DNA of 34,939 bases, taken from positions 3,401,508-3,436,446 of the forward strand of contig CP070742.1 of assembly GCA_020348065.1 (NCBI GenBank). The letters run 5' to 3'. Made by a program: the position numbers and the translations under genes. This DNA comes from Candidatus Zixiibacteriota bacterium. GTDB taxonomy: Bacteria; Zixibacteria; MSB-5A5; UBA10806. The notes beneath the pieces are model-generated. The model did no database searches. It had not been told where the DNA came from and saw only the letters and a program-made list of their open reading frames with translations. Positions 3,581 to 33,536 of this stretch are shown here, piece by piece (the stretch's first letter is position 1; every line of letters starts with the position of its first letter).

Positions 3581-4921
3581 TTAATGTTTTATGCCATATT
3601 TGTTAATTTTCAATCTTATGGAATTCCTGTGAATACCGAGAATTTCGGAGGCTTTTGTGAGGCTGCCGGCAGTCCTTTTCAATGCTTCGATAATGGCCTG
3701 TTTTTCGATATGTTCCAGATTCAGATTATCAAAACCGGGCGCGGGGCTTGCGGGCCGCTGGGCGATAAAAGGATCCAGATCTTTCAAATCGATAACGTCG
3801 CCGGGGACGAGAACTATGGCTCTTTCAATAAGGTTTTCCAGTTCCCGCACGTTTCCAGGCCAGGAGTGATTCAAAAGAAGATCCTTGGCTTCGGCCGTAA
3901 TCCCTTTAATATTTTTATTGTTTTTAACCGAATACTTTTTAATAAAATGCTCCGTTAGCGGCAGGATATCGTCACGCCTCTCCCGAAGGGGCGGGATGGT
4001 AAGGGGGATAACGTTCAACCTGTAAAAAAGGTCCTCGCGAAATTCGCTGTTTTGCATCTTAGATTCGAGATCTCTGTTGGTGGCGGTAAGTATTCTTATA
4101 TCCACAGGAATATCCTTGCCGCTTCCGAGGCGCTGGATTTTTTTACTTTCAAGCACCCGAAGGAGTTTAACCTGTATGGCGGGGGTAATATCGCCGATTT
4201 CGTCCAGGAAAATAGTGCCCTTACCTGCAAGCTCAAATCTTCCGAGCCGCCTTGAGACCGCGCCGGTAAAGGCTCCCTTCTCGTAACCGAAAAGTTCCGA
4301 TTCCAGAAGGGTTTCCGGCAAGGACGCGCAGTTTACCGCCAGAAAAGGCCCTTTCGCCCTGGGCGAAGCGTTATGTATGGCATTTGCCACCAGTTCTTTC
4401 CCGGTACCGGATTCGCCCCTGATAAGTATTGTCGCGTCGGATTGGGCGATCCTGTGGACATCCGCTAAAACGTTTTTTATAGCCTTGGATTCACCGATAA
4501 TTCCCTCCGGAATTTCGACCTCTTCGAGTTTTCTTTTAAGGTATCGGTTTTCGGCGATCAGTCTATGTGTTTCTACGATCTTCGAAAGGATCAACTCTAT
4601 GTGATCGAGATCGACCGGTTTTAGAAGGTAATCGAACGCTCCGGCTTTCATTGCCTCAACCGCCGATTCAACCGTACCATAGGCGGTCATAACCACGATA
4701 GCGAGATCGGGATAAAGCTCCAGGCTTCTTTTGATAAATGCAAGCCCGTCCATTCCGGGCATGCGCATATCCACGAAAGCCGCCTCGGCGCCCTCATTTT
4801 TAATCATATTCAGGGCGACTTCCCCGTTCTCGGCGGCGCGGGTCTTATGTCCTTTGTCGTTTAAATACTCAGTTAATAGTTCTCTTTGACGTTCTTCATC
4901 GTCTACAACGAGGAGTCTCAT
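3581..4921 (-). CDS. NtrC-family sigma-54-activating response regulator
   Basis: 446 residues with the full three-domain layout. Residues 1-115 are a receiver: acidic Asp7/Asp8, phosphoacceptor Asp51 in FVDMRMPGMDG, and Lys101. Residues about 140-375 are the AAA+ domain with Walker A GESGTGKE (169-176), the sigma-54-contacting GAFTGA (216-221), Walker B TIFLDEIGD (about 236-244) and SWPGNVRELENLI. Residues about 400-446 are a Fis-type helix-turn-helix (LTKASEILGIHRNSIRLKI). All key residues for ATP hydrolysis and sigma-54 remodelling are present. It overlaps the kinase gene by ATGA, so they form a cognate pair. Targets are not evident; a sigma-54 promoter does occur at 32226-32241 before minor pilin genes. 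Confidence 0.95.
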   Translation of the reverse strand: MRLLVVDDEERQRELLTEYLNDKGHKTRAAENGEVALNMIKNEGAEAAFVDMRMPGMDGLAFIKRSLELYPDLAIVVMTAYGTVESAVEAMKAGAFDYLLKPVDLDHIELILSKIVETHRLIAENRYLKRKLEEVEIPEGIIGESKAIKNVLADVHRIAQSDATILIRGESGTGKELVANAIHNASPRAKGPFLAVNCASLPETLLESELFGYEKGAFTGAVSRRLGRFELAGKGTIFLDEIGDITPAIQVKLLRVLESKKIQRLGSGKDIPVDIRILTATNRDLESKMQNSEFREDLFYRLNVIPLTIPPLRERRDDILPLTEHFIKKYSVKNNKNIKGITAEAKDLLLNHSWPGNVRELENLIERAIVLVPGDVIDLKDLDPFIAQRPASPAPGFDNLNLEHIEKQAIIEALKRTAGSLTKASEILGIHRNSIRLKINKYGIKH

Positions 4922-6927
4922 ATCTTACTCCGTTTACAGGGTATTACAAAATCGACTCTACATCCCTGCCCCGGTGATGATTCTATAATTAATTCGCCGC
5001 CATGATCGGTGATAATTTTCGATGCCGTTGACAATCCCAGACCGGTACCGTCGCTCTTGGTGGTATGAAACGGTTTTAATACCAACGCTGTATCCTCGAT
5101 ACCGGGCCCGTTATCGGCAATTGAGATTATTATCTTATCGTCTATATCATTAACGCTTATATCGATATTACCGTTTTCGCCGATAGCCTCAACGCTGTTT
5201 TTAATGACATTAACTAAAGCTTGAATGAGGCCATCCCGGTCGCCCTCGAAGGCATAGTCTTTCTGACCCGCATAATTTATTTTTATTTTCAGTGATTCCG
5301 CCTGGCCGGCGAATAATCCCAGGGCTCTTCTGATCAGATCATCGCTGGAAATGGAGGTCATCTCCGGCCTTACGGATCGGGCGACGGCCAGGAATTTCTC
5401 GATAATGGAATTGAGCCTGGTAATCTCCTGCCTGAGACCGTCCATAAACCTGCGATAATTATCCTCTTTATCCGCCGGCTTGATTTCGTTTTTCATGCGT
5501 TGAATGGTTATGCCTATGGCGTTTAAGGGATTACGAATCTCGTGCGCCATGGATGCCGCCAGCGCTCCCATCTCCGACAGCCGTCTTCTCGATTCTGCCA
5601 TTTCTTCGAGTTTTCTGGCGGCGGTAATATTCTGTGCCACCGCTATAGCTCCTATTACCGAGCCATCCATCGCAAACAGAGGGGTCGAAGTCACAAAATA
5701 GCGTTCTCCATCCTGCCCCATGGAGTTTTCGAAGCCGGCGCTTCTTTTGCCGGAAATAACATTTTTAAACCGGAATGGATCTTTCGGGAATAAATCGAAA
5801 TAATCTTTGCCGTCGGCATAGCCCGCCTGTAAACCAAAACATGACCTGGCGGCGGAGTTTATATCGGTTATCCTGTTCTTTGAATCTATCGCCGCCACCG
5901 GGCCCGGTATGGAATCCAGGAGGCTTTGAGAAATGGCGCTGGCCTTGAGCAGCCCGGCCTTTAAGAGATCGTAGTTCTGATATCCTACTACGGTGGCGAA
6001 TCCGATCATGCCCACAATTATCAACGCCGCCACCACGAACCAGACCTGGCGTTTCATGCCGCCGGCTATTTTCCGATAACCATACATGGATAATCCCACG
6101 CGGAAAAGACCTTCGAACTCTTTCGATTTAAAATTGCTGACGGTTTCGAGAACCTCGCGATCCTGAAAGGGTATCACTCTGCTCCTGGTGGTATCGCTAT
6201 CCAGAGATTCCAGGAGAAATTCATCATCAGATATACGCGGCATGGAGGCTATTTTTTTCGACGCGAAGATAATCCCCTCGAGGTTCTGAAGCATTATATA
6301 CTCCACGCCCGATTCCTGAGCGACCTGATTCAATAAATAGTAGAGGCTCAATTTCTGGTTGCCGTATTTTCCCAGAAGCCATTTTTTCGATACAAATAGA
6401 CCCGCTTCATTGTCAAACGGGAAAAAACTCCACAGGTAGCGATCTCCGTCGGTCTCGCGGAGTTCATAGATTATCTGCGCTTCGGGATCTATAGCAAGGG
6501 AATCTATCCAGACCTCGATCTCGTTGTTCCCGATAATGGAATTGCGCCGTAACGAAGAGGCCATTATTTTATTATTATCTATAAAGCAGATCCTGTCCGC
6601 GTCGGATAATATTCTAAGGCTGTCAAGGGCGCTGTCGGACCGAAGTTTTTCATCGGATTCGAGCGGAATTTTATCCATGAGCTGATCCAATCCCAGTTCG
6701 ATAAACTCGTCATCGGCCTCAATAATGATATCAGCTGAAGATAACAGCGACTCGGTCAGGGCTCTGCCCTGAGAAGTCAACGCGTCAAAAGCGGCGTTTT
6801 GCCCCACCTTTACTGAAAAATAGCCGGCGAAAATCAAAATGACCGCCAGGCACGTCAGGAGCGCAATCGCATGACGGAGTTTCAGGCCATAGAAAAGCGG
6901 GAGCTTTCCGATCGGTTTTTGTTTCAT
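4918..6927 (-). CDS. Membrane sensor histidine kinase with PAS domain
   Basis: 669 residues. Transmembrane helices at about 19-39 and 293-317 bracket a periplasmic sensor region of roughly 250 residues, which I do not recognise but which resembles double-PAS/dCACHE-size sensors. A PAS domain follows (about 330-435; LLDSIPGPVAAIDSKNRI). The HisKA helix carries the phosphorylated His462 in MAHEIRNPLN, and the ATPase domain has the N-box Asn576 (NVIKNSVEAI), G1 DNGPGI (605-610) and G2 GTGLGLS (627-633). It phosphorylates the NtrC-type regulator encoded immediately downstream. No start alternative is near; the ATG at 6927 has no Shine-Dalgarno and sits seven bases after a -10 box, so the message may be leaderless. 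Confidence 0.95.
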   Translation of the reverse strand: MKQKPIGKLPLFYGLKLRHAIALLTCLAVILIFAGYFSVKVGQNAAFDALTSQGRALTESLLSSADIIIEADDEFIELGLDQLMDKIPLESDEKLRSDSALDSLRILSDADRICFIDNNKIMASSLRRNSIIGNNEIEVWIDSLAIDPEAQIIYELRETDGDRYLWSFFPFDNEAGLFVSKKWLLGKYGNQKLSLYYLLNQVAQESGVEYIMLQNLEGIIFASKKIASMPRISDDEFLLESLDSDTTRSRVIPFQDREVLETVSNFKSKEFEGLFRVGLSMYGYRKIAGGMKRQVWFVVAALIIVGMIGFATVVGYQNYDLLKAGLLKASAISQSLLDSIPGPVAAIDSKNRITDINSAARSCFGLQAGYADGKDYFDLFPKDPFRFKNVISGKRSAGFENSMGQDGERYFVTSTPLFAMDGSVIGAIAVAQNITAARKLEEMAESRRRLSEMGALAASMAHEIRNPLNAIGITIQRMKNEIKPADKEDNYRRFMDGLRQEITRLNSIIEKFLAVARSVRPEMTSISSDDLIRRALGLFAGQAESLKIKINYAGQKDYAFEGDRDGLIQALVNVIKNSVEAIGENGNIDISVNDIDDKIIISIADNGPGIEDTALVLKPFHTTKSDGTGLGLSTASKIITDHGGELIIESSPGQGCRVDFVIPCKRSKI

Positions 6928-26326: not shown

Positions 26327-27691
26327 TTATTCATTAAAAGCCTGAATCGGCAGTTCGATAATCGTGGGGGTGACAAATATCACCAGGTCTCTGGTGACGA
26401 TCTCTTTTTTGTCGTATCCGAAAAGAAATCCGATAAGCGGAATATCTTTCAATATCGGAAGTCCGATCTTTAGAGATTTGTTTTCCTGATTGGTCAGGCC
26501 GCCGATGACCGCTGTTTCCCCATTTTCAACTACCACGTTCGTCTCGGCATTTTGAGTGTTGATAACGACACCATTGGGATCGAACTGGTATGAACTGCGT
26601 TCCGGGGCAAGATGTAAAAGAACCCTGTTTTCAGAAGTAATATGGGGGGTGACACGCAGTTTTGTTCCGACATCATAGAATGTAATAATCGTATTACCCG
26701 ACGGATCAAACTGTTTTATCGGAATCTTCTGGCCCATCTGTATATAGGCCTCAACGTTATCAAGAGTCGTGACTTCGGGATGCGCGATAATTTTGCCTTT
26801 ATTGGAGGATTCAACCGTTGATAGAATACCGTTAATCGTATAGTCTTCAACCAGCCTTGCGAATGAAAATTGGCCCAGCTTATCGGTTAATATGTTTCTG
26901 GTTCCGCGCACCAGGACTTCTTCCTCCGCAAAATTCTGGCGTTCCGGATTAGTGGGAAACAGCGGATCAATTTCGTTATCCGCTTCCACTTCCGGTACGG
27001 CGTCTACGTTGGAGTTAATTATGCGCCAGTCAACGCCGATCTCCCTTAAAAAACCACTCTCGACCTCAAGCAACTGGGCCGATATCTTTATCTGCCGGGT
27101 TTCCTTGTCCAGAACGTTGATCAATTCGTCAACCCTTTGGAGATTCTCGGGTAAGTCCCTGATAATTAGAGAGTTGGTCCTCTGGTCGTGGTCCACGGTT
27201 CCTCTTCCCGACAGCAGCCCCTGCACCGCCTTTTTCAACTCCCCGGCTACATTATATTTTACCGTGACAATATGGGTGCTGAGCGGAACCATGCTTTCCT
27301 GTTCCATGAGGTGTTTTTCCTCGGCGGCTTTCTCGGCGAAATAATCATCTGCTTTTACGACGCGAATATAGTTTTCAGATTCCACGCCGACCAGCACGTA
27401 GGTTTCGAGTATGATATCCAGCGCTTCTTTCCAGGTTACGTTCGACAGCCGAATGGTGACCTCGCCCTCCACGGAGGGAGACGCTACTATGTTCACGCCG
27501 CTGTAGGAAGAAAGATACATCAATACCGATTTTATATCCGCGTTGGTCAGCGATAAGCTTTTTATGACCCTGGGCGCGCTTCGGTCCGTTTCCACCTTTA
27601 TTTCTTCCTGACTTTGCAGAGCGCCGATATTTAAAAACCAGATACAGCCCAATGCGGCCATAAACGCTATCCAGAATGATATCCTTCTCAT
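26327..27691 (-). CDS. pilQ: Type IV pilus secretin PilQ, without an AMIN domain
   Basis: 454 residues. A signal peptide (MRRISFWIAFMAALGCIWFL) is followed by an STN/N0 domain (about 43-120, LTNADIKSVLMYLSSYSGV), an N1/NolW-like domain (about 140-196, HIVTVKYNVAGELKKAVQ, RTNSLIIRD) and the secretin core (ISAQLLEVESGFL, VGTKLRVTPHIT, ENGETAVIGGLTN, IPLIGFLFG, DLVIFVTPTII). Secretins form the outer-membrane gate for the pilus. At 454 residues it is much shorter than typical PilQ (700 or more), because the N-terminal AMIN domains are missing and sit instead on the product of the gene just upstream. GGAG lies eight bases before the ATG. Confidence 0.93.
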   Translation of the reverse strand: MRRISFWIAFMAALGCIWFLNIGALQSQEEIKVETDRSAPRVIKSLSLTNADIKSVLMYLSSYSGVNIVASPSVEGEVTIRLSNVTWKEALDIILETYVLVGVESENYIRVVKADDYFAEKAAEEKHLMEQESMVPLSTHIVTVKYNVAGELKKAVQGLLSGRGTVDHDQRTNSLIIRDLPENLQRVDELINVLDKETRQIKISAQLLEVESGFLREIGVDWRIINSNVDAVPEVEADNEIDPLFPTNPERQNFAEEEVLVRGTRNILTDKLGQFSFARLVEDYTINGILSTVESSNKGKIIAHPEVTTLDNVEAYIQMGQKIPIKQFDPSGNTIITFYDVGTKLRVTPHITSENRVLLHLAPERSSYQFDPNGVVINTQNAETNVVVENGETAVIGGLTNQENKSLKIGLPILKDIPLIGFLFGYDKKEIVTRDLVIFVTPTIIELPIQAFNE

Positions 27692-27704: not shown

Positions 27705-28565
27705 TTATTTTATCTCTGTAATATCAAGTTCCAGAGCGACTGTCCTTGTCCAACCATATTCTGTTATCTGGAAAATGGCTTTATCATCAGAAACGCTAAC
27801 CAGATATCCATTCTTAACTCTGTCTTTCGGCATCATAATATATCCGTTTCCTTCAGCGTCCTCCAGAAGCGCCCTGTACCCGTCTTCATCAGTCAGTATT
27901 CCGACCAGAGCCAGATTCTCAAGCGCCGGCAAACCCTGACCCAGCTGCCCCCCGGGACCGCCCACAAGTGGTTCAAAGGGATCTCGGTATCTGGAGGTAT
28001 TATAGGATACCAGCGTTCGCTTGGGATAGGACTCGATTTCCACTCCTGACGCTTTTTTCTTCACCAGGGGCTTTTCTTTCTCCGCCGGTTTCGCCGCCAC
28101 TCTGGAGGTTGTCGGTACGGCTCTCTTGACGCTCCAATCAGCGAAATCGGCTTCGTCTTTTAAGGCCGGCAGCTTTACGACTATATCGCCTCCGTTCTGG
28201 AAACTCCTGAAATCGATCGGCCGTCCTATATCGAGCACTACTCGTGTTACCGATTCCGGATCGGTCTTAAACTGGCTCGTTCTTATAGCGTCTACGGATT
28301 TTAGCGGAAGCTCCATAAACTTTTTATTTTTCCATACGTTGTCAACGCCCGTCAGATCCACTACGATTCTTTCAGGTTTCGTGCTGGTCAGAAAAGAATT
28401 GTATTTGCAGGGCTGGCCGGTGGTGATAATGACGGCTATCGAATCACCGGCTCTCTGAACCTTAATATCTCTTAGATAGTTCACCGCCCGCGCCGCGTCT
28501 GCCGCTAAAACGGTAAACCCCAGGCACAGCGCCATAAAGATTATAAAAATCCTGTTTCTGCTCAT
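27705..28565 (-). CDS. pilP: AMIN-PilP fusion lipoprotein-like pilus assembly protein
   Basis: 286 residues. The signal peptide (IFIIFMALCLGFTVLAADAARA) is followed by an AMIN domain (about 27-133, VNYLRDIKVQRAGDSIAVII, ERIVVDLTGV, VTRVVLDIGRPIDF). An Ala/Lys-rich linker and then a PilP-like fold come next (about 192-286, YRDPFEPLVGG, LENLALVGILTDEDGYRALL, GYIMMPKDRVKNGYLVSV). PilP links the PilNO inner-membrane complex to the secretin. AMIN domains bind peptidoglycan and normally sit at the PilQ N-terminus, so this is a domain transfer. It overlaps pilO by ATGA. No lipidation Cys is seen, unlike many PilP. Confidence 0.85.
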   Translation of the reverse strand: MSRNRIFIIFMALCLGFTVLAADAARAVNYLRDIKVQRAGDSIAVIITTGQPCKYNSFLTSTKPERIVVDLTGVDNVWKNKKFMELPLKSVDAIRTSQFKTDPESVTRVVLDIGRPIDFRSFQNGGDIVVKLPALKDEADFADWSVKRAVPTTSRVAAKPAEKEKPLVKKKASGVEIESYPKRTLVSYNTSRYRDPFEPLVGGPGGQLGQGLPALENLALVGILTDEDGYRALLEDAEGNGYIMMPKDRVKNGYLVSVSDDKAIFQITEYGWTRTVALELDITEIK

Positions 28566-29149
28566 GATCCCTGCCCCTGTTTTACATTATAGGTTGATAC
28601 CCTGAAGGTAGCCGTAACCGGCTTCTCATCCTTGACGCTTTCAGCCTGGATCATTGCCAATTTCTGAGCCGGCGATTTCAATGAAATGTCATTGAGATTT
28701 ACGATAAACGGGAAATTGGCCACTTTGGCCATGAATTTACCCAGGCCGTGATAGGTGGCTTCCACCTCGACGGAGTAATTATTGGTTTCGTAAAATTCGA
28801 AGGGTGTGGTGCCCAGAGGCGTAACGTCCGTAACAATCGAATTGGTCAGCTGGGCGGCGGCATGAAGCTGGTTGAGGAAGGATTCGTCCTCTTTTCTTTC
28901 CGGAAGCAAAATCTCCACCTTCTTATATTGAATCTGCTTTTCATTGTATTCTTTCTGCAAATCGGAAAGGCCGGCAGCCGTTTCCTGTACATCATGCAGC
29001 TTTTTTAGAAGGGTACCCTTCTGGATTTCCATCTGCGAAATCTTAAGCTGGTAAGGCGAATAAATTTTCGCAAACCAAACATAATAAAGCCCGAGAAATA
29101 CCACGGTAATTATTAAAGTAATTTGAGTTTTGGGGTCTCTCAAATTCAT
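28562..29149 (-). CDS. pilO: Type IV pilus inner-membrane protein PilO
   Basis: 195 residues: one N-terminal transmembrane helix (about 10-27, ITLIITVVFLGLYYVWF), a coiled-coil stretch (LKISQMEIQKGTLLKKLHDV) and a C-terminal ferredoxin-like domain of the PilO type (LLPERKEDESFLNQLHAAAQ, SVEVEATYHGLGKFMAKVAN). With PilN it forms the inner-membrane alignment complex that couples PilM in the cytoplasm to PilP and the secretin. The ATG has GGGAGGGG upstream; the gene overlaps pilP by four bases and is 55 bases after pilN. Confidence 0.9.
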   Translation of the reverse strand: MNLRDPKTQITLIITVVFLGLYYVWFAKIYSPYQLKISQMEIQKGTLLKKLHDVQETAAGLSDLQKEYNEKQIQYKKVEILLPERKEDESFLNQLHAAAQLTNSIVTDVTPLGTTPFEFYETNNYSVEVEATYHGLGKFMAKVANFPFIVNLNDISLKSPAQKLAMIQAESVKDEKPVTATFRVSTYNVKQGQGS

Positions 29150-29204: not shown

Positions 29205-29861
29205 CTAAAATTGTGTTCCTGCGGCGGGAGCAGACTGCGCCGTCTCCATCGTGGCGGCGGGAGGCTCCGACGTCGCAAAATTACACGTTATCTTAAATGA
29301 ATAGGCTTTGGCCTTTTCAGTTTCCTCGAGTTTAATCGATGTCAGCTCTATATCGCGAAACATTTCCGATTTTTTCAATCTTATCAGAAAAGTGGCGAAG
29401 GCGTTGAGCGAAAAAGAATATCCCTCGATGGTGGATTTGGCCGCGACGGGCTGCGCCCCCGGAGTTCCGGGACGAGCGCCGGCCGAGGGATTCTGTTCAA
29501 CGGAGGTAAGCCAAACGTAATCCGGAATCCTGCGAACCAGATCCTCAAGAAGCTTGACCCAGTAATTTCTGTTCTGGTCGAGAACCTGTATCGCCGACAT
29601 CCTCGCCAGGATCTGTGTCTTTTTAAGCGAGATATCTTCAATTTTCTGTATCTCGGCCGAGTACCTGGCAGTCTCATTTTCAGCCTGTAAGATGTCTCTT
29701 TCCAGGCTGTTTAGCTTTCCCGCCTGAAAAACGAGACTATAAACAGCCAGCAAACCGGCGATAACCACCCCGCCGACTATTATGAGGACCATATTTTTAT
29801 CGACGGATATCGCGAACCGCTTGTATTGTAATTCCTTCGGCAGTAAATTAATTTCTATCAT
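29205..29861 (-). CDS. pilN: Type IV pilus inner-membrane protein PilN
   Basis: 218 residues. MIEINLLPKEL is the conserved PilN N-terminal peptide that docks onto PilM. A transmembrane helix follows (about 26-47), then a coiled coil and a ferredoxin-like PilN domain (WVKLLEDLVRRIPDYVWLTS, IEGYSFSLNAFATFLIRLKKSE). It differs from the usual protein by a Pro/Ala/Gly-rich insert (about 126-141) and an Ala/Pro-rich tail. The start overlaps the pilM stop (TAATG) and is preceded by GGAGGG. Confidence 0.92.
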   Translation of the reverse strand: MIEINLLPKELQYKRFAISVDKNMVLIIVGGVVIAGLLAVYSLVFQAGKLNSLERDILQAENETARYSAEIQKIEDISLKKTQILARMSAIQVLDQNRNYWVKLLEDLVRRIPDYVWLTSVEQNPSAGARPGTPGAQPVAAKSTIEGYSFSLNAFATFLIRLKKSEMFRDIELTSIKLEETEKAKAYSFKITCNFATSEPPAATMETAQSAPAAGTQF

Positions 29862-30910
29862 TACACCCTCCGGGCCGCCAGTCCCATGGGCACCGCCAGA
29901 AGCGGCGCTACCTTCTCGGGTTGATTTTCAAAAAACAGATCGGGGTCATATTCTATATTTCTCAAAGGATTGAAAATTTCAACCGGTATGGCGAGTTTAT
30001 TTTGCATGAGCTCCGGCAGATAGGGCACCAGGGCGCCTCCGCCCGAAAGCACAATCCAGTCAAGCGTCTCAGAGCCCGACGAGCTCTTAAAATAGGAAAT
30101 CGCGACCTCGATCCCGGCCATCAGTTCCTCGAATGTGGTCGCCACGGTCGCCTTAAACATGTCCTGGTCGATGGAACTGTCCATCTCCCCTTTTATGGCC
30201 TTGGCCGTCAACTCCTGGTTCAGACGGAATTCCCGGCCGACCGCTTCCGAGATCAACCGTATGCCGTTGGAAACATCTCTGGTAGAATGATAAAGACCGT
30301 CTTTCAGAAATACAACATTGGTATTTTCAAATCCTATGTTAATCAACGCCGTTACCTTCGACGGGTCGATATCATAGTTAATTTCGTAGGCGTTTAAAAC
30401 CGCGAAGGCGTCGGTATCCACCAGGACCGGCTTCAAACCGGCATCGAAAACGAGGTCCAGGATATTTTTCAGAAACTCGTTTCTGGCGGCCACCAGGAGT
30501 ATCTCCATCTTTCCCGCTTCGTCATCGTACTTGATGACATGATAATCCATAGTGACGTCTTCGACATCGAATGGACTTCGTTGCTCGGCCTCGAACAGTA
30601 TAGCCTGTTCGGCCTCGGCTCCGGTTTTCTTGTCCATGAGGAATTTGTCGGTGATAACTCCGTGACCCGCTATAGAAATAACCACTTCTTTAATCTTGGG
30701 ATCGGTCTGATCTACGAGGTTCTGGATGTCGAAAATGACAGCGTCGCGATCTTTGATCTCGTCAGTCGTTATCGCTCCGAAGGGAAGCTCTTTTATGCCC
30801 ATAGCCTTTAACAGATAGCCCCCGGGTTTGGCCTGAAGTTTTAAAAGCTTAATGGAACTCGAACCGATATCCAATCCAACAGCTAATTTAGATTTTTTTA
30901 ATGCGCTCAT
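29861..30910 (-). CDS. pilM: Type IV pilus actin-like ATPase PilM
   Basis: 349 residues from ATG 30910; an in-frame TTG at 30925 is inside the GGGGG that probably serves as ribosome binding site. Actin-like ATPase motifs: VGLDIGSSSIKLLKL (phosphate 1), VVISIAGHGVITDKF, ALINIGFENTNVVFLKDG (phosphate 2) and DWIVLSGGGALVPYLPEL (adenosine). It forms the cytoplasmic ring that holds PilN and supports pilus assembly. It is first in the pilMNOPQ operon behind a good sigma-70-like promoter (30965-30993). The assembly motors PilB and PilT are not in the window. Confidence 0.93.
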   Translation of the reverse strand: MSALKKSKLAVGLDIGSSSIKLLKLQAKPGGYLLKAMGIKELPFGAITTDEIKDRDAVIFDIQNLVDQTDPKIKEVVISIAGHGVITDKFLMDKKTGAEAEQAILFEAEQRSPFDVEDVTMDYHVIKYDDEAGKMEILLVAARNEFLKNILDLVFDAGLKPVLVDTDAFAVLNAYEINYDIDPSKVTALINIGFENTNVVFLKDGLYHSTRDVSNGIRLISEAVGREFRLNQELTAKAIKGEMDSSIDQDMFKATVATTFEELMAGIEVAISYFKSSSGSETLDWIVLSGGGALVPYLPELMQNKLAIPVEIFNPLRNIEYDPDLFFENQPEKVAPLLAVPMGLAARRV

Positions 30911-30964
30911 TCCGGGATCCCCCAAAGTTATTGGACCATTTGAGTCTGCAAACTCCTGCGTTAC

Positions 30965-30993
30965 TATTTATCGGCTTTGATCGCCGATGTCAA
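30965..30993 (-). promoter_or_regulatory. Sigma-70-like promoter of the pilMNOPQ operon
   Basis: Minus strand: TTGACA (30993-30988), a 17-base spacer, TAAATA (30970-30965). The leader would be about 48 bases. There is no second copy and no recognisable operator; the 90 bases toward the pilin gene are AT-rich with no hairpin. Confidence 0.6.
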
Positions 30994-31683: not shown

Positions 31684-32193
31684 CTATAGTAAGCTTCTCA
31701 TCTCCGCCACCGTCGAATAACTCTTCGACAGGGTCTCGATTTTGTCCTGATCGTTTTCCTTCATTGATATGGTCGCGATAGTTACCTCTATCTTTTTGCC
31801 GTCCGCGCTGGTAGCGTTAAGGGAACTGACATTCTCGGCGATGATTTTATCGGTATTCTCGATCTTTTTTACCAGGTTTTTATCTTTATCCACATAAAAC
31901 TCGAAACAAACGTCGTTATGCCAGATTATCAGCTTATCGCTTTCTTTGCCTTTGACTATGTTCAAAGGTTTTTTGCCTTTTTCGAGATTATATCCCGCCA
32001 GCCCGATATGGTATTTTATATCCTCGAGCGCCATCTTTACGGAGTTTTCAGCCGTGCCTCCACGATAACCGTCATAGCTCGCCTCCAACCTGCTTACCTG
32101 GAGGTTCCATAAAGCGGTGGAGATAACCGATATCATCACGACTACTAACAGAATTTGAATCAGGGAAAATCCTTTTTGGTTCGTCTTTCTCAT
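31684..32193 (-). CDS. Prepilin-like minor pilin with Gln at mature position 5
   Basis: 169 residues. The leader MRKTNQKG is cut before FSLIQILLVVVMISVISTALW. The fifth mature residue is Gln instead of the near-universal Glu; loss of this charge is known among minor tip pseudopilins such as GspK. The rest is beta-rich with SRLEASYDGYRGGTAENSVK and VSSLNATSADGKKIEVTIATI, like the PilW/PilX type. The ATG has GGAGGAAT directly before it. A close match to the sigma-54 consensus lies 33 bases upstream and would place the transcript start just before the ribosome binding site. Confidence 0.75.
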   Translation of the reverse strand: MRKTNQKGFSLIQILLVVVMISVISTALWNLQVSRLEASYDGYRGGTAENSVKMALEDIKYHIGLAGYNLEKGKKPLNIVKGKESDKLIIWHNDVCFEFYVDKDKNLVKKIENTDKIIAENVSSLNATSADGKKIEVTIATISMKENDQDKIETLSKSYSTVAEMRSLL

Positions 32194-32225: not shown

Positions 32226-32241
32226 TGCAACACGCGTGCCT
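32226..32241 (-). promoter_or_regulatory. Near-consensus sigma-54 promoter for the pilin-like genes
   Basis: The minus strand reads AGGCACGCGTGTTGCA. Against TGGCACG-N4-TTGCW it differs only at the first base; the essential GG and GC are in exact spacing. The predicted transcript start is near 32215, 22 bases before ATG 32193 and just ahead of GGAGGAAT. Sigma-54 promoters need an NtrC-type activator such as the one at 3581-4921 or a PilR relative elsewhere. No enhancer-like dyad was found nearby. Confidence 0.75.
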
Positions 32242-32428
32242 TCCGGGTTGGGTTTTAATAACCGCCTTATTAGCAATGGATTAGCGATCCGGAGGATATG
32301 GGGAGTCGACAACAATTTCGCCGAAATAATCGATTTGATTCCAAAAGTATGGTGAGATTCCCATAGTGGTTTCATTAGTTAGGCGCGGGATGACACCACG
32401 TTAACCTCGGAAGAAGTGAATTCGGGTA

Positions 32429-32457
32429 TTGACAATTGTTTAGATATAAAATATATT
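32429..32457 (+). promoter_or_regulatory. Sigma-70-like promoter of the IPTL peptidase gene
   Basis: TTGACA (32429-32434), a 17-base spacer and TATATT (32452-32457), plus strand, in an AT-rich stretch. The leader would be about 128 bases and ends in AAGGA six bases before ATG 32592. Apart from this promoter and the divergent sigma-54 promoter, the gap 32194-32591 shows no gene or structured element. Confidence 0.65.
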
Positions 32458-32591: not shown

Positions 32592-33536
32592 ATGCGAAGC
32601 AATTTATCCACGATTTGCCTGTTGGCGATCATCCTGAGTCTTGTCTTATTTTATGGCGAATCGGTTTTCGCGCAGCAGAGCACTACGGGGCCCGTTCCAC
32701 CGATCGGTATAGAGCGTGGAATTAAGCCGCCCACACGTCTGCAGACAACCATACCAAACGTGCCGTCTTATATCTGGCATCATGGCTGTGGCCCTACCGC
32801 CCTGGGAATGGTGGTGGGATATTGGGACGGCAACGGTTATCCTAACCTTGTGCCGGGAGACGCGTCGAGCCAAACCGCGGCGGTTGATGCGATGATTGCC
32901 GACGATAGCGGAAATCCGAATTGTTCTCTTCCTGATGGAGACCATTTTCAGGATTACTCCTGCCCTATAGACACTTTCCCTAATATGAAAACCGATAGAT
33001 CGGTAACCGGGGGCGCGCATACCAGCGATTGCGTGGCCGATTTTATGGAAACCTCGTGGAGCTCTGTAAGTAACTATTATGGGTGGAGTTGGTTCTCCGA
33101 TGTCGCTCCATCCTTCATAAATTATGTCAATTTTACTGATCCTACTTATGGACCCGCTGCGACCGGCCATCGCTACCATCAGTTTACTTTTGCCAATTAT
33201 ATGGCCGAGATCGATGCCGGCCGGCCGGTCGTCCTGCTGGTTGACACCGACGGGGACGGCGACACCGATCATTTCGTCACAGGCATCGGATACGACAACT
33301 CTACAAATGAGTATGGCATCTATAACACCTGGGATCATTCCATTCATTGGTTTTCATGGAGATATACAGGAAATTTTTGGGGAATCTACGGAGTTATAAC
33401 ATTTTCCCTGGAGCCTGGTGCCATCCCTACGCTCTCCGAATGGGGCATGCTGATCATGGCGCTGTTGCTGCTGGCCGCCGGGACGGTAGGCGCTATCAGG
33501 AAACGGACAATAGTCGCGGCGGCTAAATCCCGATAG
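32592..33536 (+). CDS. IPTL-CTERM surface protein with C39/papain-like peptidase domain
   Basis: 314 residues. A signal peptide (about 1-27, ending VFAQ) precedes a cysteine-peptidase-like domain: HHGCGPTALGMVVGYW with Cys66, DHFVTGIGYD with His227 and YNTWD with Asn245 or Asp248, the order of C39 and other papain-like enzymes. Just before the His is DTDGDGDTD (218-226), which fits the DxDxDGxxD calcium loop. IPTLSEWGMLIMALLLLAAG (278-297) then RKR form the IPTL-CTERM tail: a short motif, a helix and a basic end, for anchoring or sorting. A promoter and a good ribosome binding site precede it. The substrate is unknown; it may process or degrade surface proteins. Confidence 0.75.
   Translation: MRSNLSTICLLAIILSLVLFYGESVFAQQSTTGPVPPIGIERGIKPPTRLQTTIPNVPSYIWHHGCGPTALGMVVGYWDGNGYPNLVPGDASSQTAAVDAMIADDSGNPNCSLPDGDHFQDYSCPIDTFPNMKTDRSVTGGAHTSDCVADFMETSWSSVSNYYGWSWFSDVAPSFINYVNFTDPTYGPAATGHRYHQFTFANYMAEIDAGRPVVLLVDTDGDGDTDHFVTGIGYDNSTNEYGIYNTWDHSIHWFSWRYTGNFWGIYGVITFSLEPGAIPTLSEWGMLIMALLLLAAGTVGAIRKRTIVAAAKSR

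Follow-up and report, generated by a model that had tools for sequence, protein, structure and literature searches.

The minor pilin genes in the window (the whole stretch of DNA analyzed, 34,939 nt from the 3.74-Mb single-contig genome of a Candidatus Zixiibacteriota bacterium) are preceded by AGGCACGCGTGTTGCA, which is most likely a working sigma-54 promoter served by an NtrC-type activator at a palindrome further upstream, with pilA probably under a different activator. In the proposed mechanism, the activator (a bEBP) would bind the palindrome (124 nt ahead of the -24 box), loop over and open the promoter, which would drive an operon starting with two minor pilin genes; the transcript may continue into pilMNOPQ. 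An earlier note on this DNA had pointed out the promoter and hinted at an NtrC-type regulator encoded in the window as its driver. The promoter is probably real and old, and the suggested activator is probably wrong. What is new is the palindrome, which the earlier note missed, together with the finding that it is paired with the promoter throughout the phylum. Together they offer a defined regulon with a defined putative binding site, which is open to in vitro tests that need no culture of the organism, and a switch shared across a phylum for which no cultured member figures in this work.

The minor pilin operon and its sigma-54 site

Table 1. Features of the window discussed in the text, by position.
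Feature	Position	Strand	Remarks
NtrC-type response regulator named in the earlier note	3581..4921	minus	poor activator candidate
Histidine kinase paired with this regulator	4918..6927	minus	
pilQ, secretin	26327..27691	minus	PF00263, PF03958
AMIN-domain protein in the pilP position	27705..28565	minus	PF11741
pilO	28562..29149	minus	PF04350
pilN	29205..29861	minus	PF05137
pilM	29861..30925	minus	PF11104
Sigma-70-like promoter before pilM, TTGACA-N17-TAAATA	30965..30993	minus	exceeds controls in the window's order only
Sigma-28 (FliA)-like element before pilM, GTTAA-N15-GTCGATAA	31018..31045	minus	conserved phylum-wide
Minor pilin gene, FimT/GspH-like, 167 aa	31094..31597	minus	GspH (PF12019) and N_methyl (PF07963) above cut-off
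Minor pilin gene, PilW-like, 169 aa	31684..32193	minus	first gene of the operon; prepilin motif GFSLIQ
Predicted sigma-54 (-24/-12) promoter, AGGCACGCGTGTTGCA	32226..32241	minus	PWM score 16.3 (maximum 18.4)
Palindromic putative enhancer, TATGGGAATCTCACCATA	32348..32365	minus	2/14 mismatches to TATGGGA-N4-TCCCATA
Sigma-70-like divergent promoter, TTGACA-N17-TATATT	32429..32457	plus	towards the gene at 32592; identified by eye

The order of the genes, prepilin genes followed by pilMNOPQ, is that of a type IVa pilus minor pilin/alignment complex operon (Table 1). The first product is called PilW-like by appearance; no Pfam family was found for it, and its N_methyl match was weak and below the cut-off. 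A FimT/GspH-like pilin gene stands before pilM in most of the 110 phylum genomes compared. Elsewhere in the window's own genome (G000), another type IV pilus-like system is encoded at G000:C1:695001-709372, where an additional pilM-like gene is accompanied by pilin genes, an ATPase gene and a gene for a secretin-like protein.

The sequence, strand and position of AGGCACGCGTGTTGCA are as the earlier note had described them, including the single departure from TGGCAC-N5-TTGCW at the first base (A for T). GG at -24 and GC at -12 stand at the fixed spacing, and the site scored close to the maximum of a generic position weight matrix whose weights were not fitted. Its placement for the pilin start also holds: the 3' end lies 32 nt upstream of the ATG at 32193, which is preceded by a GGAGG ribosome site. 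Seven sequences in the window match TGGCAC-N5-TTGCW with up to two mismatches (9.6 expected from shuffles), and AGGCACGCGTGTTGCA is the only match with one mismatch. Genome-wide, DGGCAC-N5-TTGCW occurred seven times and the reversed pattern nine times, with a chance expectation of ~0.07-0.08 per 35 kb; the pattern alone is thus no commoner than chance and proves nothing. AGGCACGCGTGTTGCA is more than chance because of its position and its conservation. Prepilin genes lie downstream of two of the seven genomic matches, and a third follows a copy of the palindrome at a distance of 139 nt.

The genome encodes a single rpoN (DNA-binding domain match, 4.6e-61). The gene that the earlier note had required for its claim is thus present, although in this assembly it carries an in-frame TAG after the activator-interaction region (codon 51, G000:C1:1593422-1593424; L001 1630-1632, in the region of G000:C1:1593401-1593403). 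This codon is GAG (glutamate) in 12 of 12 aligned relatives, and the remaining frame is intact; judged by the open frame, rpoN is also intact in the other genomes with a match to the DNA-binding domain (37/39). The TAG may be an assembly error, a recent mutation or the mark of an N-terminally shortened protein. If real, it would cost the protein its activator-contact region.

Conservation of the promoter and the palindrome

G001, from the same genus, has -24 and -12 blocks that match those of the window letter for letter; the spacer has changed, and so has much of the flanking sequence. We compiled pilM upstream regions from 110 phylum genomes (109 fetched plus the window's own); of the 126 genomes at the start, 16 had been left out (two without PilM, four with PilM at a contig edge and 10 with partial or weak matches). 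The named relatives found with the window's PilM were Candidatus Zixiibacteriota MAGs, except for one acidobacterium. A pilin gene was present in 93 regions, and after removal of three that were too short, the 220 nt before the pilin were scored with the generic matrix. The score reached at least 8 in 71 of 90 regions; on the reverse strand this happened in 3, and with an altered spacer in 3-6. The site is thus conserved among relatives, as the earlier note needed it to be. Several low scorers were operons headed by extra pilin genes, in which the site shifts to the first gene. Within the window's order, all seven pilin-bearing genomes (G000, G001, G002, G003, G006, G007, and G008) have the site; G005 is without such a pilin upstream of the pilM examined.

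The palindrome, TATGGGA-N4-TCCCATA, was assembled from words enriched upstream of sigma-54 sites, and with up to 3 of 14 mismatches it was found in 62 of 71 upstream regions, against 13 of 1420 shuffled and one of 71 reversed sequences. As judged from its sequence, this putative enhancer would provide the upstream activator site of a sigma-54 promoter. The two elements were counted as a pair when a palindrome with at most three mismatches and a sigma-54 site scoring at least 8 lay 100-175 nt apart. By this definition, 74 of 110 genomes, from 16 of 19 families, have a pair before the pilin-pilM operon, counts that are inflated by the kinship of the genomes; controls on the same 110 genomes gave 2 (reverse strand), 0 (reversed sequence) and 0-2 (shuffles). 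The 36 genomes in which the pair is absent include all members of families f3, f5, and f15. Distances from palindrome to promoter cluster at ~115, 124, 133-137, 143-147, and 161 nt, about one helical turn apart, as expected for looping. At 10.5 bp, the helical phasing (R = 0.48) exceeded that of every one of the 20000 draws made from a smooth null; the test is weakened by relatedness, which inflates phasing as well.

A further conserved element, TGTCAA, is located ~30 nt upstream of the palindrome (within 200 nt in 49 of 74 cases). It was rejected as part of the switch, since it resembles the -35 box of a gene in divergent orientation, which in the phylum often encodes a secreted protein of ~600 aa. 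In the window, the divergent neighbor of the pilin operon encodes a C39-like IPTL-CTERM protein. An Rfam search of 15 pilM-upstream loci and the end of the window gave no match.

The earlier note had given pilMNOPQ a sigma-70-type promoter. This element is present, and near-perfect promoters of the TTGACA-N17-TAAATA type precede pilM in G000-G003 and G006-G008. As a feature of the phylum it was rejected (53 of 93 regions at score 8, versus 52, 49, and 55 in controls). The account was also incomplete, in that a conserved sigma-28-like element, GTTAA-N15-(G)CCGATAA, lies just upstream of the sigma-70-like promoter. With up to three mismatches, this element was found in 77 of 110 genomes, compared with 21 of 550 shuffles and 3 of 110 reverse strands, and its count peaks at a spacer of 15. 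The FliA consensus is TAAA-N15-GCCGATAA, which GTTAA-N15-GTCGATAA resembles, and a FliA/WhiG sigma factor is encoded in the flagellar cluster of the genome. The conserved element suggests a control link between flagella and pili; if real, it would tie pilus building to flagellar gene expression. With the sigma-70-like and sigma-28-like elements before pilM, pilMNOPQ could be transcribed independently of the sigma-54 promoter.

These elements, the in-frame TAG in rpoN and a genome-wide pattern count equal to its control count in favor of a reading in which AGGCACGCGTGTTGCA is a chance or relic match and the operon is run by sigma-70 or sigma-28 promoters. We regard this as very improbable, given that both upstream elements are conserved with their order and spacing at the frequencies above, far from the 0-2 genomes of the controls.

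Control of pilA and the candidate activators

Sigma-54 control of pilA is textbook knowledge. The pilA-like gene of the genome (10317-9892, minus strand), which is followed by a second pilin gene and then a prepilin peptidase gene, is preceded by a perfect sigma-54 site, TGGCACGCCGGTTGCA, without the palindrome; this is a further site before a pilin gene, of the kind that the earlier note had suggested looking for. The best-hit pilin was in place in 27 of 30 pilA loci of relatives, and in 21 of these 27 the sigma-54 score was at least 10 (controls, 0-2). A different motif, TGC-N5-GCA, occurred in 22 of 32 pilA-like upstream regions (L262-L291), where 1.4 were expected; it is a possible PilR site. 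Since pilA has a perfect sigma-54 site and lacks the palindrome, there are likely to be two sigma-54 pilin regulons, each with an activator of its own.

We searched ~0.27-0.3 Mb of G000 for further copies of the palindrome. In a second prepilin cluster (3191.4-3195.8 kb), a sigma-54 site with a score of 9.9 follows a two-mismatch copy of the palindrome at a distance of 135 nt. The two stand at the start of a second minor-pilin operon (3195.7 kb), which a promoter-enhancer pair of the same kind would control. The pair would probably also control a membrane-protein gene at 3686 kb: the strict sigma-54 site at 3686355, with a palindrome 139 nt upstream, precedes a gene for a 432-aa multi-TM protein (G000:C1:3685003-3686301; L317 7004-8302) for which no family was found. 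An additional copy with two mismatches is located at position 1275 of L077.

The genome has 17 strong Sigma54_activat matches. The earlier note had hinted at the regulator and kinase of the window as drivers of the promoter, and we consider it highly unlikely that they fill this role. The regulator has an intact GAFTGA loop and orthologs in 18 of the 21 genomes searched; it shares the window with the operon in G000, and in the family members G002 and G003 only ~24 kb separate its ortholog from pilM. On the other hand, the ortholog in G001, of the same genus, is ~800 kb away from pilM, 17 activators are available, no NCBIfam pilus-regulator model fits among the best matches listed, and PilS and PilR candidates are encoded elsewhere. 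On the same grounds of distance, number of activators and candidates elsewhere, the pair was rejected as a likely PilSR. In the NCBIfam scan of regulators, the best matches listed included no PilR or PilS model and none of the regulators reached the equivalog cut-off, and a PDB sequence search with two regulators returned general NtrC-family matches only.

A PilS-like kinase is encoded after pilC (732814-734532), an order seen in 28 of 30 loci in our own listing. The PilR candidate (2653699-2655108) is named by synteny only: in 18 of 39 relatives, its ortholog and a pilA-like gene are no more than 2.5 kb apart. The PilR-type group retains an intact GSFTGA loop, and in G009 a PilR-type gene is found ~2 kb from pilM; PilR might accordingly be imagined to activate both pilA and the minor pilin operon, with the palindrome as one of two kinds of PilR site. 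This appears improbable, as does PilR as the activator at the palindrome, because the pilA upstream regions are enriched for the other motif and contain the palindrome (at most three mismatches) in only one case of 32.

Two other ortholog groups, both linked to the operon, are our leading candidates for the activator that would bind the palindrome. The group of G000 3549091-3550545 (here 3549k), with 67-78 percent identity among the members compared, is a possible activator that we name tentatively. In nine genomes (G016, G017, G022, G024, G028, G030, G117, G119, and G120), a bEBP gene of this type is located upstream of the operon on the same strand (the G117 and G120 genes were placed in the group by sequence), and in G016 and G017 it directly precedes the palindrome, the sigma-54 site and the pilin gene. 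Its contact loop is GAFTSS in the window's genome, G003, G022, and G028, which speaks against a role of the predicted protein as a sigma-54 activator in these four, and GAFTGA, GAYTGA or GAYTGS in five others. Unusual bEBP contact loops, GAFTSS or GAFTDA, were seen in L085 (3549k), L090 (307k), and L079 (3739k). The group of 2576313-2577749 (2576k), whose genes immediately precede pilM in eight genomes of f3 and f15, comes second and is by itself rather unlikely to be the activator.

In six of those eight genomes (G025, G125, G009, G018, G032, and G127), the 2576k-type regulator has lost its GAFTGA loop, and the search at pilM gave no sigma-54 site; four of the six keep the palindrome, at -244 to -252, which speaks for a link of this group to the palindrome. 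With the regulator gene directly before pilM in f3, the palindrome there, and perhaps elsewhere, might be the target of a bEBP-like protein that has ceased to work with sigma-54 and regulates pilM as a conventional activator or repressor. We hold this to be somewhat unlikely: the clade is small, it bears on the window only by analogy, and pilin genes were sought at the pilM locus only.

The preferred reading of a sigma-54 promoter activated from the palindrome can be extended to two separate sigma-54 pilus regulons. PilSR would control the pilA fiber, and a second NtrC-type activator with its own palindrome would control the tip/priming complex and the base of the machine. On side branches, both the promoter and the loop by which this activator contacts sigma-54 would have been lost. 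We offer this fuller version as plausible and with some reserve. The main subunit, through PilR, and the tip and priming parts would then probably be switched by different activators. If the regulons are separate, the number of pili could be set independently of the supply of pilin.

Comparison with known systems

A general link of sigma-54 with pili has been described, in the part of the source drawn on here (PMC3162934). A literature search retrieved no second sigma-54 switch for minor pilins heading pilMNOPQ, and a search naming the phylum retrieved nothing on its pilus control.

Minor pilins are controlled apart from pilA in Pseudomonas aeruginosa as well, where, according to the relevant part of the report, AlgZR and Vfr act on fimU-pilVWXY1Y2E (PMC8787478). 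The regulators of the minor pilins there are AlgR and Vfr, whereas the elements described here are of the sigma-54 type with a putative NtrC-type enhancer architecture. In Myxococcus xanthus, a portion of the published account describes NmpR as a second NtrC-like regulator that targets the pil locus by way of a sigma-54 site, upstream of pilR (PMC6211767); the likeness to the regulators considered here is one of description.

The closest parallels in kind are the PilS-PilR/sigma-54 systems that control pilA in Pseudomonas, Geobacter, Myxococcus, and Xylella. Sections of the reports describe sigma-54 control of pilA in Geobacter, where EBP genes adjoin their targets (PMC2725144), in Xylella (PMC3224663) and in Myxococcus (PMC6211767). 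Those systems share with the present one a sigma-54 promoter before pilin genes, NtrC-type regulators and EBP genes beside their targets. In contrast to them, the predicted promoter here heads the minor-pilin genes of a pilMNOPQ operon and has its own palindromic putative enhancer, which is absent from pilA.
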